Assembly (NCBI GenBank): GCA_028696815.1 | Contig: JAQVGG010000012.1 | Coordinates: 1-36,852, forward strand | Source of the DNA: Candidatus Altimarinota bacterium | GTDB lineage: Bacteria; Patescibacteriota; Gracilibacteria; BD1-5; UBA6164 | Direction: 5' to 3' | Length of the DNA: 36,852 bases | In this document: one piece after another, positions 10,689-30,465 of the stretch | Numbering within the stretch: the first letter of the stretch is position 1 | Layout: each line of letters starts with the position of its first letter | Notes under the pieces: generated by a model | The model's input: the letters and a program-made list of their open reading frames with translations, nothing else | The model's database searches: none | Told to the model about the DNA's origin: nothing | Position numbers and translations under genes: made by a program

Positions 10689-13600
10689 ATGACTCATTTT
10701 TCTAAAAAAATAACACTTTTTACACTGATACTAATAGTACAGCTTTTAAATGTTGTTTTAACAACAACTCAAACTCATGCTGCAACTACTACTCTAACAT
10801 ATGCTTGAACAGCAAACGACATATGATGAGGTAGTTTTTCTTGGTCAAATCCATCAAATGCTACTTGAGATACAACAATTACTTCAGCTACAAGCACTAT
10901 TAGCACAAGAAATGCTTATACTAATTACTTATCACTTACAAATTTCAATCTTGCATGAGCTTGATTACCATCAAATGCAGTTATAAATGGGATACAAGTA
11001 GAAGTAGAACGGCAAGTATCAAATAATAAAGTGAAATGAACCACGGTACAGCTTACAAAAAATTGAGCAAGTCCAGTATGAAATAATTATTGAAGTGCTT
11101 CTAATTGACCTACATCAAAAACCATAACTACATATTGATGATTAACTAATTTGTGGTGAACAACATGGAGCACATGAGACTTATTATCAAATAATTTTTG
11201 AGTTATATTGATGTATCAATATACAAATAAATGAAGTGCTAGTGTAAATATATATAGAGTAAGGATAATTGTAGATTATACTGAAATAAATAATCCTGGT
11301 TGAGTTTGATGAACATCTTTATGGTTAAAAGCTGATGCTTGAACTAGCACAATTTCTGATTGAACATCACTAAACTCATGGAATGATTCTTCATGAAATT
11401 GATTTAATGCAATAGCTTGAGTATCTCCAACTTATTTAAATAATGATAATGATAATCTTAATTTTAACCCTGTTGTAAGTTTCAATGGTTCAACTCAATA
11501 TATGCAAAACTTAAATAACTGAGCTTATTCACACAGTTATTATACTGTAATAGTACCAAATAACACAACTAATGGTACTGTTACATGACAAATGCCTTTT
11601 TGATTTGATTGTAACTCATGAATTTTAAGTAGTGGGACTTGTTGACTTCCATTTTCATGACTTACTATATGAGCTTTTACTATAGCAATAAATGATGAAG
11701 TTATAACTCATGCTATATGAGCAAGCACTTCTTGGAGATCTGCTCAAATTTGAGCATATTCATATGAGGCAAATAAACCAATACTTATTTGAATGAATGA
11801 AAATTCAACTTGAAATTGAACAGATATTTATGAAAAATGAATAAAAATTAATAATTATACCGCTAATGATTATCAAACTTTATCAAACGCTAATTATAGA
11901 ATATGAATGAGTATGGATAGCGCTAATCCATTTCCTTATAATTGAAAAATTGCTGAAATAATAAATTTTAGTTCTAGACTAACTGATACTGAAAGACAAA
12001 AAATAGAATCTTATTTATCTCTAAAATATGGTATAACTTTAAATTCTGGAACACAAAATTATATAGCATCAGATTGAACTACTTCTATATGGTCTGTAAA
12101 TAATGCCTGACTCTATACATATAATATTTTTTGAATTGGTAGAGATGATGATTCAGAATTATCACAAGTTAAATCAAAATCATCTAATAGTGACTCTGTA
12201 ATTACAATAGAAGCATTATGAGAATGAACAAATATGAATCCTAGCTTTATAGACATAGATAATCTTGAGTTTTTAACAATATCAAACAATAATTTATGAA
12301 ACACTTGGTTAGCTGTTGGTGCTCCTGCTTGATATTATAATTTAGAACGCAATTGGAGAGTACAAGAAACATGAGAAGTTTGAACTTTAAATCTTATTTT
12401 TGATGTTTGAAACACAAATTTTGATATACCAGACTTAAATATATGAACACAGTATTATTTTGTATATGACAGTAATAATAATTGAATTTTATCAGATGAA
12501 ACACCTATTTCAATGACAAATGTTTGATGAAATATATGGGAAGTTTGATCAATAAATTTAAATAATAATCAAATATTTACTATAGCTACACAAGCTTCAA
12601 CAAATAATATACCTACAGATATAAGTCTATCAAATAATACTATAAATGAAAATGTTGAACCTTGAATAACTATATGAATATTTTCTACAAGTGATGCTGA
12701 TAGCTGAGATACTCATACATACACTTTAATTTCTTGAGCTTGAGATACAGATAATTCTTATTTTTCTATAAATACAAATATTTTATCCATAAATGATTCT
12801 CCTGATTACGAACTAAAAAATACTTATAGTATAAGAGTACAAACTGATGATAGCAATTGATGACAATTTCAAAAACAATTTACTGTATATATAAATAATA
12901 TAGCAGAGGACCCAGATACTATTATAGATTTTGAAAGTGTTTCTGATGAATCAAAATACAATGTTACTTCATGAAATTGGACTAGAACCACTAGTATTCA
13001 TTATGAGTGACTGTATTCTATTGAGAGTAATAATGGAGGACTTCCAAATACTCAATCTTGTTTTGAAATAAACTCTACATTTAGTACAACTTGAACTATT
13101 TCATTTTATTACAATGTATCATCTCAAGCAAACTGAGATTACTTAAGATTTTATATAGATAATATAGAACAACAAGCATGGTCTTGAACAGTTCCCTGGA
13201 CTAACTATATTAAAAATAACATATCTGCTTGAACACATAGTTATAAATGGTGTTATATAAAAGATACATCAACAAATAGTTGAAGTGATAAAGCTTGGAT
13301 TGATTATATAACTCTTAATAGTGTAAATATTGATTTAGCACCACCAACAATAACTAGCGTCAATTATACAAATGGTTCTCTACTACCTTGATGAAATCAT
13401 AATATAATTATAAATTATAATGACTCTGACTCATGAATAGACACGACTTCTGATAATATCAATCTATATAAATGGAACGGGAGTAGTTGGTGAAGTGATA
13501 TATCAGCTATATGACTAAATCTCTGAACAAAAACCATAACAACAACTAGTGCAACATATACTACAAATAACTTGAGCTTTTGAAAATATCGTTATAACTT

Positions 13601-14057
13601 TCAAATTTCAGATAATGAATGAAACTTTTCTTCAACTGAAGTTATATTTTATATAGATGAACCTGAGTTAATAATAAATACTTGAAGTTTAGATATATGA
13701 AAGCTAAAATCATGAAATGATTATTTTACTCCTACAGAGTTTCAAATCACAGTAAAAACTGTTTGAGTATGATTTAATTTAGTATTAAATAAGATATGAC
13801 CTGTTATTTATGATATATTTGAAATAGTTGATTATAATTGAGTTAATTGAGTTTGATATGATAAAGAACCATATACTTCCTCAATACATAAAATAAATCC
13901 AAATGAGATTATTGCTACTCAGGGTGGAAGTATAAATACTAACTGAGAAAAAAATATATACATTTATAAAATACGTATGTGAGCTTCTGTATGAAATGAA
14001 CAAGCAGCTTGAAATTATATATGAGGTATGAAATTTACTTTAGATTTAGATTATTAA
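10689..14057 (+). CDS. Large exported multi-domain surface protein with cadherin-like and WxL-like C-terminal domains
   Basis: 1122 residues, very Asn/Thr/Ser/Gly-rich, with about every second or third TGA-coded glycine in short loops. The N-terminus is a signal peptide ([16 protein letters not shown]...). A segment at about 437-560 ([16 protein letters not shown], then [12 protein letters not shown]) resembles a domain common in large Bacteroidota-type surface proteins. A cadherin-like repeat lies at about 639-737 ([31 protein letters not shown]). A jelly-roll/carbohydrate-binding-like sandwich follows at about 744-880. The last 125 residues (998-1122) start TGSLDIGKLKSGN and end [19 protein letters not shown]. 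This segment is clearly similar to the C-terminal domain of the next gene and reminiscent of WxL domains. I infer a cell-wall or S-layer-attached adhesin. Confidence 0.85.
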
Positions 14058-14176: not shown

Positions 14177-14206
14177 TTGACAAAAAAAAAAGAAGTATGT
14201 TAAAAT
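14177..14206 (+). promoter_or_regulatory. Strong sigma70-type promoter for the small surface protein
   Basis: A perfect -35 TTGACA (14177-14182), an 18-base A-rich spacer, and -10 TAAAAT (14201-14206) preceded by an extended -10 TG. About 75 bases of untranslated leader precede the start codon. It is the best promoter visible in the window, consistent with high expression. Confidence 0.8.
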
Positions 14207-14282: not shown

Positions 14283-14957
14283 ATGATGATAAAAATAAAA
14301 ACACAAAAAGTCTTAGCTACATTAGCATTAACTGCTATGGCTACAGCAACTTTAGGTAGTACTTATGCTGCTACACAAATCGGTACGGCATCTGTTAATA
14401 ATACAACTAGTTTCGATACAGCAATTATGTGGGATGAATCTTTCCCAGGTACTGCATCTGGTTCTGTTTCAGGAATAGTTGTAACAGCTACTGTAGATCC
14501 AAGTTTAAGTATGGAGTTATCTACAGGTGCACTTGATTTAGGTAATTTAGTAGCTGGAGTACAAGCTACAGGTACATTAGATATAGAAGTTGGTACAAAT
14601 GCTGCGAATGGATTATCTATAACTGCTAGATCAGGAAGTGGTTGATTAACTAATACTTCTGACAGCTCTATACAAATCAATGATTTAACAACTGATGGAG
14701 TTGCTGAATCATATAAATTTTTGTCAGCTATCAATGCTACTGCTGATTCTACAATTGCTGGTTTTACTCAAACTGCAAATTTAGATACACAAATAAATAA
14801 TAATACTACTGAACATACAATATATACATCTAATAAACCTCAACAAACAAATGGTTTAGATGATATTACTTTTACAGTTGCAGCTACTTCTAATGCACAA
14901 ACTGCTGCAGGAAATTATCAAGATACTATTACATTTACAGTAACTGGTAACTTCTAA
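14283..14957 (+). CDS. Abundant exported surface protein, WxL-like domain
   Basis: 224 residues. A signal peptide (KVLATLALTAMATATLGSTYAA) is followed by a Thr/Ala/Gly-rich beta protein. Residues about 80-224 begin TGALDLGNLVAGV and end QTAAGNYQDTITFTVTGNF. They align by eye with the last 125 residues of the upstream 1122-residue protein. The closing strand resembles the second half of WxL domains (aGtYtatLtWtL), but the Trp is replaced by Phe. Only one of nineteen glycines is TGA and the rest are GGT/GGA, unlike the neighbours. With the consensus promoter and strong terminator, this suggests a very highly expressed structural surface protein. Two ATGs are adjacent; the first is used here. 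Confidence 0.85.
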
Positions 14958-14984: not shown

Positions 14985-15024
14985 AATGTCATTTCACCAC
15001 TTCGGTCGAAATGACATTTTTTTT
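14985..15024 (+). terminator. Strong Rho-independent terminator
   Basis: An 11-bp stem (14985-14995 with 15008-15018) extended by an inner ACC/GGT pairing, followed by a T-run. It follows the abundant surface protein gene and probably limits readthrough into the DUF916-like gene. Confidence 0.88.
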
Positions 15025-15104
15025 TGCTTTTTTAAGTTTTTTAACTAATATTTTTTTAACATTTTTTAAACAAATATTTAACTTTTTAACATCATTGTGA
15101 AAAA

Positions 15105-16490
15105 ATGAAAACAAAAAAAATACTTCTAATCATTTTTACTTTTATCTTTTTTCTTTTATCTTTTAACTTTGTTAATGCCTCAATCAATCTTTCAGTATCA
15201 CCAATAAAAGAAGAAATACAAGCAGAAATTTGAACAACTATTACAAACATCGCAAAGCTTACAAATCATACAAATGAAACATTACATATATATACTTGAA
15301 AATCAGATTTTGAACCTAATGGAGATAATTGAAAACCTAAATTTATAAGAAAAAGTGAGCTTGTAAATCCAAATCAGCAATTAGCAGAATGGATAAATAT
15401 TAATACAACAGATTTTTATATAGAACCTTGAGAAACAATAGAGATTGAATATACCATAACAGTTCCATCTGATGCAACTCCAGGATGACATTATGGAGCT
15501 GTATTTTTCAAAAATAATAGTAGTGAAACTTCTTGATGAGCAGCTGTTTCTATAAATGTAGATTACTGAGTACTTGTTTTAGTAAATGTTGCTTGAGAAG
15601 TTAAAACAGATATAGACATAAAAGATCCTGTGATTTTATGAAATATAGGTGCATGAAGTAAATTAGAGAGAGATAAGTGTCCTATGTGAGATTTATCTAG
15701 GAGTTATTATGATTGAATATGTATAGATAAATTTGAAGATATTATTAATTGATTAAAGTGAGATAAAAAAGATAATACAAATACACAAACTTGAGAAACT
15801 CAAGATAGAGATTTCAATATATCATTTGAAATTCCTATTGAAAATACTTGAAACACACATATAAAGCCAAGTTGAAAAATAATATTAGTAGATGAAAATT
15901 GAAATGAGTTAAAAGAAGTATGAAAAGAAATAATAACAAATGATAAATGAGCAATTATCTGAGAAAAAATAGTAGATTACATCCCAATAAATGATTTCTG
16001 ATGAAATATATTACCTGGATCAGAAAGGAAATACCAGTGTGATTGGAAATGATTTTGATTTAAAACATATGATGAAGGTTGAAATGAAATAGTAGATTAC
16101 TGGGACCCATCCGAATACTATACAAATAAAAATAAAAAAGAAGCGTGATTTTTAATGTTTTGGGAGAGAGTTTGTGAAAGGCAACAAAATAAAAAAATAA
16201 CCGCTATATTTGATATATCATACCTAGATGAAAACTGAGAATTAATAGAATATAATGCAGCAAAAGATTTCTACATAGACTATACTGAAGAATATATATG
16301 ATTAAATCCTTATGTTATTATTCCATTATCTTGATTAGCTTTAGCTATATTTACATTTTGGATTATAGCAATTCTAAAGAGAAAAAAATGTCCAAATTGT
16401 AAAAAGAGAGTTAAAAAGGATATGAAAATATGTCCATATTGTTGAGAAAAACTTAAAAAATGAACACCTTGAAGAAAAAAGAAAAAATAG
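15105..16490 (+). CDS. DUF916-like surface membrane protein with cytoplasmic zinc ribbon
   Basis: 461 residues. A signal peptide (residues about 1-25) is followed by an extracellular immunoglobulin-like domain beginning INLSVSPIKEEIQAE. Its core (FYIEPGETIEIEYTITVP, TPGGHYGAVFF) matches the DUF916/WxL-interacting-protein N-domain pattern. A second region (about 200-400) has several Trp and Cys. One membrane helix (YVIIPLSGLALAIFTFWIIAIL) is followed by a basic cytoplasmic tail with a four-cysteine zinc ribbon (CPNCKKRVKKDMKICPYCG). Proteins of this type in Firmicutes bind WxL proteins and peptidoglycan. The zinc ribbon tail is not part of the standard architecture as I know it. The gene ends in TAG inside its terminator. 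Confidence 0.8.
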
Positions 16491-27584: not shown

Positions 27585-28484
27585 ATGAAAATAAATAAAC
27601 TAGATTTAGCTAAAATCATAAGTGATTTTATGTTTCTATGAGTTGATAGTCCAGAAGAAAAAGCAAAAGTTATATTTAAAGTAAAACATAAATTAACTGC
27701 TCATTGATTTGAGAAGTATATGCAATATTACTTTCAAATCAAAAAATGATATAAAGTTAAGTTAAATTGAAATACTAATCAATTTGACTGATGAATAGAT
27801 TTAAAGTGAATAAAAGTTGAAAATTGAGTTAAAAAATACTTAGTTGTTCAATGTAAAAAATATTCAATTAAGGATATTACAGAAAATAATATAAGAAGTT
27901 TTCAATGATGAACTATTCACAAATATGCTGAATATAAAAATGATACTGATACATATTATATAACTACTTCTAAGTTTACAGATAAAGCTGAAAAATTTGC
28001 TAAAGAAGTATGAATAAAAGCTATAGATTTTTCTCATTTATATGATTTACAAAAATCTTATCCTATAGAACAGTTTGAAAAAGACTTAAAAAATCAAGAG
28101 TGAATAAAAGAATATAATAAATCTTTTAATCAAGACCAAATGCTTTTAGAATTAAATAATCAAGTTTACGATACTATATGAGTTACTGATAAAGATGTTT
28201 TTCAATTATTAAAACAAGTAAGAAGAGATTATTCTTATAGTAAACAATTAAGATTATGAGATATTGCTAGAAATGATACCCTAGAATTATTAGCAAGAAA
28301 AAGACCTCATAATTTACAAGTATTAAAAGAAACTGTATCTCACTTATCTACAAGAGAAAAAAATAAATTAATGAAACATTGAAATATATTTATAGAAAGA
28401 CTTAAATATATTCATAATGAAGAAGAAATTGAAACAGAAATTGAAAAATGATTTTTCAGTAAATTAGTTGAATTTATCAAATAA
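27585..28484 (+). CDS. Mrr-like restriction endonuclease with HRDC-like C-terminal domain
   Basis: 299 residues. The N-terminal part (about 35-150) shows an Mrr/PD-(D/E)XK nuclease pattern: GFEKYMQYYFQIKKGYKV, then NQFDGGIDLKG with Asp72 and YLVVQCKKYS with the Q-x-K pair Gln89/Lys91, then NIRSFQGGTIHKY. Mrr enzymes cut DNA, usually modified DNA. The C-terminus (about 220-280) resembles an HRDC helical domain (LRLGDIARNDTLELLARKRP, then LSTREKNKLMKHGNIFIERL), which binds nucleic acid. No methylase or specificity subunit is adjacent. It is the first gene of a block of defence-type genes after tRNA-Glu. The HRDC call is by eye and less sure than the nuclease. Confidence 0.8.
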
Positions 28485-28514
28485 AAAACCCTATGTGATT
28501 TTTCATAGGGTTTT
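28485..28514. terminator. Bidirectional terminator
   Basis: An 11-bp perfect stem AAAACCCTATG/CATAGGGTTTT (28485-28495, 28504-28514) between the converging Mrr-like and RloB-like genes. Confidence 0.88.
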
Positions 28515-28521
28515 ATTATTT

Positions 28522-29121
28522 TTAATTTCTTAGAAAATCTATAATTTTATAAACATCAGAATATGGGTCTCTATCTTTAAAATTTCAGTAATCTTTATTT
28601 ACCTCTTTTACATTTGTTATAGCTGTTTGAACTTTTTCAGTATTTTCTAACCAGTTATAGTCTTCATCTCAAGTCATTTTATAATCCTTTCATTCTGGTA
28701 AATTTGGTAAGAACTTTCTTATTTCATCTAAATACTTCTTTTTTCATTTTCATAAATCATACTTTTTAAAATGTGATAAAACCCAATATTCAAAGCATTC
28801 ATTATTATAAATAAGCTCATAATCTTTCAATACATTTTGAGTATTTTGTAATTTTGACTTATCTACAAATATATCTAAATCAAAAACTATAAACACTTTT
28901 TGTGTTAATCAAGCTGTTTTATCATGTTTAATATCCCCTTTTATCTTCCTTAAAACTTGTTCTGGATGGTCCATTATTTTTGTTCATCATTTTAAATCAA
29001 CTGAAATAACCTTAAAACTATTATCTAAAATTCTGGAAAGTTGTATAAAATACTTTTTTTCTGTAAGTCATTCACAAAAAATATAAACAATAGGTTTTTG
29101 AATCATTACTTTTTTTACCAT
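28522..29121 (-). CDS. rloB: RloB-like protein (AbiLii-type defence effector)
   Basis: 199 residues. The N-terminus IVYIFCEGLTEKKYFIQLSR matches the RloB/Toprim-like start (EGxTExxYF). It is followed by VFIVFDLDIFVDKS and NNECFEYWVLSHFKKYDLG, the N-x-x-FE-x-W-x-LxHF motif typical of the family. RloB proteins are found with AAA ATPases in restriction/abortive-infection loci and have a Toprim-like nuclease fold. It starts 6 bases after the stop of the ATPase gene, so the two form an operon, the usual two-gene arrangement. Two in-frame ATGs are possible (29121, 29106); the longer fits the gene spacing. Confidence 0.85.
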
Positions 29122-29127
29122 TATATT

Positions 29128-30465
29128 TTACAAGTTAAATTCAGATAAAATAGGAATTGCTCAAAAAGCTCAAAGCTTATAAGCTTTTTTGATATCAGAA
29201 TTATTTCTAATTTGGATAACTTTAAAATCATCTAATGAGTAAATTTCTGTTGCTCAGTAGAAATCTTTTGAAGTAAAATAAATTTGGTCTTTTTTAAATA
29301 ATTCTAAATCCATTAAGTCTAAACTATGAGTATTAAAAAGAAATTGAGATTCTCAAATCTTATTTTTTCAATTCTCATTAATTCAATGAATTATACTTAT
29401 TAAACTTTCTATAATCAATGAATGCATATGAGTATCAATCTCATCAATTAACAATATTCAATTATTTTCTATTGTTTTTAAAATAATTCAAACTAATCAA
29501 AATAATCTTTTTGTTCAAAGAGATTCTTGTTTTTCTAAATTAAATCATATATTTCACACTCTTTTTTTGTTTTGATAAACTGGATGAACAAAATTTAACT
29601 CCAAAATTTTATTTGGAATAAATCTTTGTCCATTTTTCATTAATATTATTCAGTCATCCTCTTTATATTCTCTTTCTTCCTGTTTTATATCTTCTATATT
29701 AATATCTGCACTTTTAATAAAATTTAAAATAGTTTCTTTCTTGCTTTCAATTTCAAGCATAGGAAGGGTTAATCATGTTAAATCAAATCTAGAATCTATA
29801 AAGTTTACTCATCTAAAAAACTTTATTATTTTTGTTGCTAAAAATTTTCATTTACTATCTTTATCAGCTAATAATGATATAAAAGTCTGATTATCTCTTG
29901 GAAATAATTTTAATTTTTCGAAGTCTTCATCTTCAAATCAAAAATATGTTTCTTCTATTTCTCACTTAGTTATTTGCCTATTTATAATAACTTTTTCTTT
30001 ACTCTTCTCAAAGTATGATAATCTTTCCTTTAAAATTTCATCTTGATTTAATTTCAGAAAGTATTTATATTTAATTTTATCAATTAAAAACTCTATTTCA
30101 AATTCAATATCTTTCTGTTTACTATCTTCATCAAGTAAGAAACTATCAAAAAAAACTCTAACTCATTGTCTCTTTTCTCTTTCTAATAATTCATCTTTAA
30201 TTCATAATCAAGGTTGAAATCAAAAAGAATTTAAAGTTATATACTTTAAAAAATCCAATCATTTAAAAATATTAGTTTTTCAACTAGCATTAGCTCAATA
30301 AAAAATTGCTGTTTTATTTAACCAAATAGTTTCTCAGTCTTTTAACTTTATTATATTCTTATTATTTACTGTATTTCTATTTTTTATCTTTCTATTTGCC
30401 TCCATTGAAAATCAAGCTTCACCCTTAAATGAAAGATAATTTTTTACTTTAAAATTTAGTAACAT
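29128..30465 (-). CDS. AAA-family ATPase of an RloA/AbiLi-like defence system
   Basis: 445 residues of SMC/OLD-like AAA ATPase. The start MLLNFKVKNYLSFKGEAGFS is the typical beginning of the AAA_15/ABC-like ATPases. Walker A is FYGANASGKTNIFKGL (GANASGKT at 57-64). Walker B is ILLIDEIDTHMHSLI near residue 343, followed by QFLFNTHSLDLMDLELF, the H-loop region. Such ATPases sense infection and control a partner toxin. It is paired with the RloB-like gene 6 bases downstream, matching AbiL-type or related two-component systems. Its 5' region contains several hairpins shared with the divergent DUF3892 gene. Confidence 0.87.

Follow-up and report, generated by a model that had tools for sequence, protein, structure and literature searches.

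In the genome of this code-25 bacterium TGA is the commonest glycine codon (68.4% of all glycine codons), and the genes of the translation apparatus, together with the gene of a 224-residue surface protein, were found to be strongly depleted in it. We attribute the depletion, with a probability of about 0.8, to translational selection against UGA-glycine in highly translated genes, among which the 224-aa gene is placed by the presumed abundance of its product. This explanation, already proposed in a preliminary description of the DNA, was strengthened by the codon usage of the ribosomal proteins (33% TGA against 70% elsewhere), by the non-glycine codons of the surface gene (96th percentile of similarity to translation genes) and by the recurrence of the depletion in related genomes.

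Glycine codon usage in the genome

The window, which is the whole stretch of DNA analysed (36,852 nucleotides), corresponds to contig C13 of a draft genome of 1.19 Mb in 41 contigs. A total of 1025 genes were called under code 25 with our own script, and the translation genes were identified with ribosomal and elongation-factor sequences of E. coli, which served solely as search queries. Four contigs (C3, C23, C27 and C33; L006, L029, L033 and L039, respectively) were found to carry 0-5% in-frame TGA-glycine, unlike all other contigs. They are probably contaminants from a standard-code organism and were excluded from the genome counts, as were three masked contigs.

The 35 ribosomal proteins encoded 138 of 414 glycines (33.3%) with TGA, compared with 14736 of 21161 (69.6%) in the other genes (Fisher p=5e-51), and the median TGA fractions per gene were 0.34 and 0.73, respectively. 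The lowest fractions were those of L7/L12 (0/14), NDK (0/12), a 1145-aa secreted protein (4/86) and an N-methylated pilin (1/20). Near the 224-aa gene in the ranking were L1 (1/19), EF-Ts (1/16) and EF-Tu (5/37, rank 9), followed by S1 (named from its sequence only), L10 and a peroxiredoxin. The preliminary description had held that ribosomal and other abundant proteins with the TGA fraction of the genome average would speak against selection; the ribosomal proteins, EF-Tu and L7/L12 all lie far below it. When all codons were compared between translation genes and the rest, the strongest contrasts were obtained for TGA (log odds -1.65, z -17) and GGT (+1.58, z +18), the next being TCT (z 8). 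The TGA fraction separated ribosomal and elongation-factor genes from the remaining genes with an AUC of 0.93. The S10-spc cluster (C20) contained 41% TGA versus 24% in other ribosomal and elongation-factor genes (p=5e-5), an unexpected heterogeneity among equimolar ribosomal proteins. The 1145-aa secreted protein (C11:28492-31926, equivalent to L051:8492-11926) has no Pfam match and is possibly a major surface-layer protein.

The surface gene, its product and its neighbours

The open reading frame at positions 14283-14957 of the forward strand is uninterrupted under code 25. Its 19 glycines are encoded by GGT (12), GGA (6) and TGA (1), in agreement with the preliminary description and compared with TGA shares of 73% in the window and 68% in the genome. 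Against the genome fraction of 68.4%, the binomial probability of at most one TGA is 1e-8. With an over-dispersed beta-binomial for all genes as the reference, the probability rises to 1.8e-4, and about 0.13 genes as extreme as this one are expected among 740. The gene ranked fifth lowest in TGA fraction among the 740 genes that contain 10 or more glycines. Its similarity to the codon usage of translation genes, with glycine left out, falls in the 96th percentile, a score that is independent of glycine and hints at high expression. The regulatory signals described earlier were also recovered, namely a near-consensus extended promoter (TTGACA-18-TAAAAT with TG, a consensus match only) at 14177-14206 of the forward strand and a strong intrinsic terminator at 14985-15027 of the same strand, in which a stem-loop of -15.7 kcal/mol (z -5.8) is followed by a U9 run.

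No Pfam family matched the 224-aa protein. The NCBIfam profile NF058581 (CPR_Pam_pilin_C) scored 18.6-20.2 bits against it, below the cut-off of 55, with residues 81-224 aligning weakly to the whole profile, and sequences matching both the profile and the family of the 224-aa gene were found in G055 and G098. Judged from these alignments, the protein is a putative distant relative of the CPR "Pam" pilin family, resembling it along the whole profile and differing from its members by a score far under the curated cut-off. A literature search for "Pam pilus" returned no paper. The structure of the protein was predicted with a pLDDT of 79, which exceeded 90 in most of the core and was of low confidence in residues 1-60. 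The best Foldseek matches of the predicted fold were FimF/G, Csu, CfaB and TasA (E of 2e-3 and above), and the VIA Z reached 9.1 against the CfaE pilin domain (rmsd 2.7, 120 aligned) and 7.6 against CsuA/B, so that donor-strand pilins of the chaperone-usher or TasA-like type (FimF/G, Csu, CfaB/CfaE, TasA), which are marked by an incomplete Ig-like beta fold, are the closest folds. We read the 224-aa protein, by its predicted fold, as a structural surface subunit that is secreted and resembles pilins, a role that would fit high abundance.

Both flanking genes lie on the forward strand and encode most of their glycines with TGA, as had been stated before. The upstream gene (10689-14057) encodes a 1122-aa surface protein with a cadherin-like stretch below the cut-off and served as neighbour control (91/108, 84%), and the downstream gene (15105-16490) encodes a 461-aa protein with a weak WxLIP/Fn3-like region and a C-terminal zinc ribbon (34/40, 85%). 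The depletion in the 224-aa gene is therefore not regional, and regional mutation bias was rejected as its cause. The domain that the surface gene had been thought to share with its upstream neighbour was not retained, as the local similarity between the two is weak. In rplK (L11; 26772-27236, forward strand), TGA occurs at codons 15, 25 and 32, all within the first 40 codons as originally noted, although the gene contains 14 glycines instead of 13. A 5' ramp effect, which this distribution suggested, was rejected, since the translation genes have 27% TGA early and 32% late (p=0.36). Elsewhere in the window (27585-30465), a restriction-endonuclease-like gene adjoins two genes resembling an RloA/RloB-type AAA ATPase and its partner; the region is a possible defence island, the genes being named from sequence impression only.

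Homologues in related genomes

Homologues of the 224-aa gene were identified in 57 of 99 relatives, with local synteny mostly kept. The named genomes among them are nearly all Candidatus Gracilibacteria or Patescibacteria; the outlying homologues were one in a Saprospiraceae-labelled contig, which may be misbinned, and a short, weak match in a Dojkabacteria record. A protein related to the 1122-aa neighbour adjoins many of the homologues, and the synteny of the downstream 461-aa gene is kept in most relatives. For the neighbourhood comparison, 20-kb stretches from 40 relatives were used and genomes with a TGA baseline above 20% were considered. In these TGA-using genomes none of the 37 homologues exceeded its neighbours in TGA use, and only one was level with them (Wilcoxon p=1.5e-11), although the 37 are not independent because the genomes are related. 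The depletion holds in two families, and the homologue is mostly the lowest gene of its own 20-kb stretch; the G010 homologue, with 14 of 16 glycines as TGA, is level with its baseline.

The translation genes behaved similarly. EF-Tu was under the local TGA baseline in all 18 genomes for which both values were obtained, and in a class-wide comparison of 24 genomes with in-frame TGA it had fewer TGA codons than RuvB, the shorter protein, in 19, an equal number in one and more in four. Exceptions among code-25 genomes include G088 and G010, with 35 and 24 TGA codons in EF-Tu, and cases like G088 show that mutation pressure can prevail. Homologues of the 1145-aa protein were found in 38 of the 40 relatives, with TGA/Gly counts of 0/82, 6/90, 4/89 and 1/82, and 22/92 in G010. 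Several genomes also contain shorter, TGA-richer paralogues of this protein (e.g. G005, with 26 TGA in about 466 aa).

The sole TGA of the 224-aa gene (codon 121, at 14643-14645 of the forward strand, in the context GGT-TGA-TTA) was compared column by column with the homologues. Among the homologues of TGA-rich genomes, 18 of 22 carry TGA in this position, and 0 of 21 at the preceding Gly120. Over all 41 homologues, 18 TGA were observed versus 4.4 expected, a pattern that was noticed post hoc and may reflect shared descent. Codon context was rejected as the cause: in low-TGA genes, glycine before TTA had 17% TGA versus 30%, and the effect of a preceding glycine was not significant. Recurrent TGA columns were also found in EF-Tu (10/13 and 8/13); site retention is therefore not peculiar to the 224-aa gene and may be common in TGA-poor genes. 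It could be imagined that UGA serves code-25 bacteria as an inherently slow glycine codon, which is removed from abundant proteins and kept at sites such as codon 121, where a pause might aid co-translational folding or export, but we consider this quite unlikely.

Decoding of UGA and the cause of its avoidance

Two tRNA-Gly genes were found, one with anticodon UCA and one with UCC, which settles the copy number of tRNA-Gly(UCA), left as a check by the preliminary description, at one gene in the genome. The tRNA(UCA) (C36:33677-33755) possesses the glycine identity elements G1:C72, C2:G71, G3:C70 and U73, according to the criteria of PMC8629427. No tRNA-Gly(GCC) was detected by ARAGORN, Rfam or pattern search of the genome, and GGT is favoured over GGA, yet tRNA-Gly(UCC) is the sole tRNA found for both codons. 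RF1 is present (g0338), and a search of the draft genome, three contigs masked, with E. coli RF1 as query found no RF2, the absence of which has been reported for the group (PMC6851277). Three other tRNA or tRNA-like genes were recorded: a tRNA whose anticodon loop is interrupted by a 61-nt insertion (C41:5913-6045, L016), a tRNA-like gene that adjoins tRNA-Gln and has an anticodon loop of 6 bases (C21:2164-2238, L027), and a tRNA with anticodon CCG (C31:804-880). A reading of CGG as Trp has been predicted for some Gracilibacteria (PMC8629427).

Under translational selection, AT-biased mutation would have made TGA the commonest glycine codon (68%), and about two thirds of the glycine codons would depend on the single-copy tRNA-Gly(UCA). 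In very often translated genes, selection would keep the two codons of tRNA-Gly(UCC), GGT and GGA. The 224-aa gene would be almost free of TGA because its product, a pilin-like subunit, probably ranks with the most abundant proteins. From the burden on the one tRNA(UCA) we infer a slower decoding of UGA, in preference to a higher error rate. The codon frequencies of the translation genes differ from the rest beyond base composition, and the bias of a given gene recurs in related genomes.

Base composition alone could produce the pattern if genes of higher GC simply held fewer TGA codons. The TGA fraction does fall with non-glycine GC in ordinary genes (rank correlation, rho -0.50), and most low-TGA genes, including the 224-aa gene, are GC-rich for the genome. 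However, the 76 GC-matched ordinary genes have a median of 58% TGA, and only two of them (the 1145-aa secreted protein and the N-methylated pilin) are as low as the 224-aa gene. With GC as a covariate the translation-gene effect persists (-1.39 logit, SE 0.15), and with GC removed the AUC is still 0.91. The remaining codons preferred by translation genes end in A or T for the most part (GAA, AAA, TTA, AGA and GCT), therefore a general GC shift is no explanation, and base composition as the only cause is distinctly improbable. Hardly credible is a recent acquisition of the 224-aa gene from a standard-code donor, with TGA not yet accumulated. The low TGA content and somewhat raised GC (0.33) of the gene would agree with such an origin, but its non-glycine codon usage is like that of native highly expressed genes. 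The preliminary description had doubted such a transfer, and the wide occurrence of homologues almost only in Gracilibacteria among the named genomes, the conserved downstream neighbour and the depletion of the same gene across genera therefore lead us to reject it.

That UGA is avoided for the sake of accuracy rather than speed, being misread (as Trp) or prone to drop-off, is unlikely. In the proteomics of a related bacterium, UGA positions occupied by Trp, Ala, Asp and Lys were found in single peptides (PMC4032931), and a UGA/UGG wobble ambiguity has been noted (PMC8629427). An Akashi-type test of modest power, however, found that glycines conserved in E. coli avoid TGA no more than others (OR 0.91, CI 0.62-1.32; stratified 0.84), which leans to speed over accuracy. 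Sensitivity of charging was also considered, whereby tRNA-Gly(UCA) would become uncharged first under glycine shortage and genes needed in starvation would avoid UGA. One tRNA(UCA) gene for 68% of the glycine codons, and the presence of the peroxiredoxin and surface proteins among low-TGA genes, would be in line with it, but core growth genes such as EF-Tu and L7/L12 are equally affected, and we regard it as improbable.

Translational selection as proposed here resembles classical codon selection in that translation genes and presumed abundant surface genes favour the same codons, most strongly at the top of expression. It differs in that the disfavoured codon is a recoded UGA, the majority glycine codon, with a dedicated tRNA. 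In the ciliate Oligohymenophorea sp. PL0344 the highly expressed genes are reported to make less use of the reassigned UAA and UAG, for which inefficiency has been offered as a reason (PMC10553269); that organism is a eukaryote, its codons and amino acids are others, and expression was measured there and is inferred here. The genome agrees with code 25 of Gracilibacteria and Absconditabacteria as described in PMC4032931, PMC6851277 and PMC8629427 (UGA as glycine, no prfB, and identity elements of tRNA-Gly(UCA)). Expression-dependent UGA use in code 25 is not described in the literature passages searched. In PMC10746230, high UGA usage is taken as support for efficient UGA decoding, an argument that the codon data presented here question.

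The TGA fraction had been suggested as a simple expression predictor. It does rank translation genes, but it is confounded with GC, is uneven from one ribosomal protein to another and does not hold in certain lineages, and the non-glycine codon score shows hardly any relation to it outside the extreme tail. A GC-corrected TGA ranking is usable for likely abundant proteins of uncultured Gracilibacteria, such as the surface protein, the pilin, the pilin-like fibre and the peroxiredoxin. For TGA-dense phages of code-25 hosts, more efficient translation should not be assumed. The recoded codon has become the majority and yet is used like a non-optimal one in proteins presumed to be abundant, so that "frequent" is separated from "efficient". 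This bears on how a codon reassignment is completed, in that mutation pressure would fill the ordinary genes before it reaches those that are highly translated.
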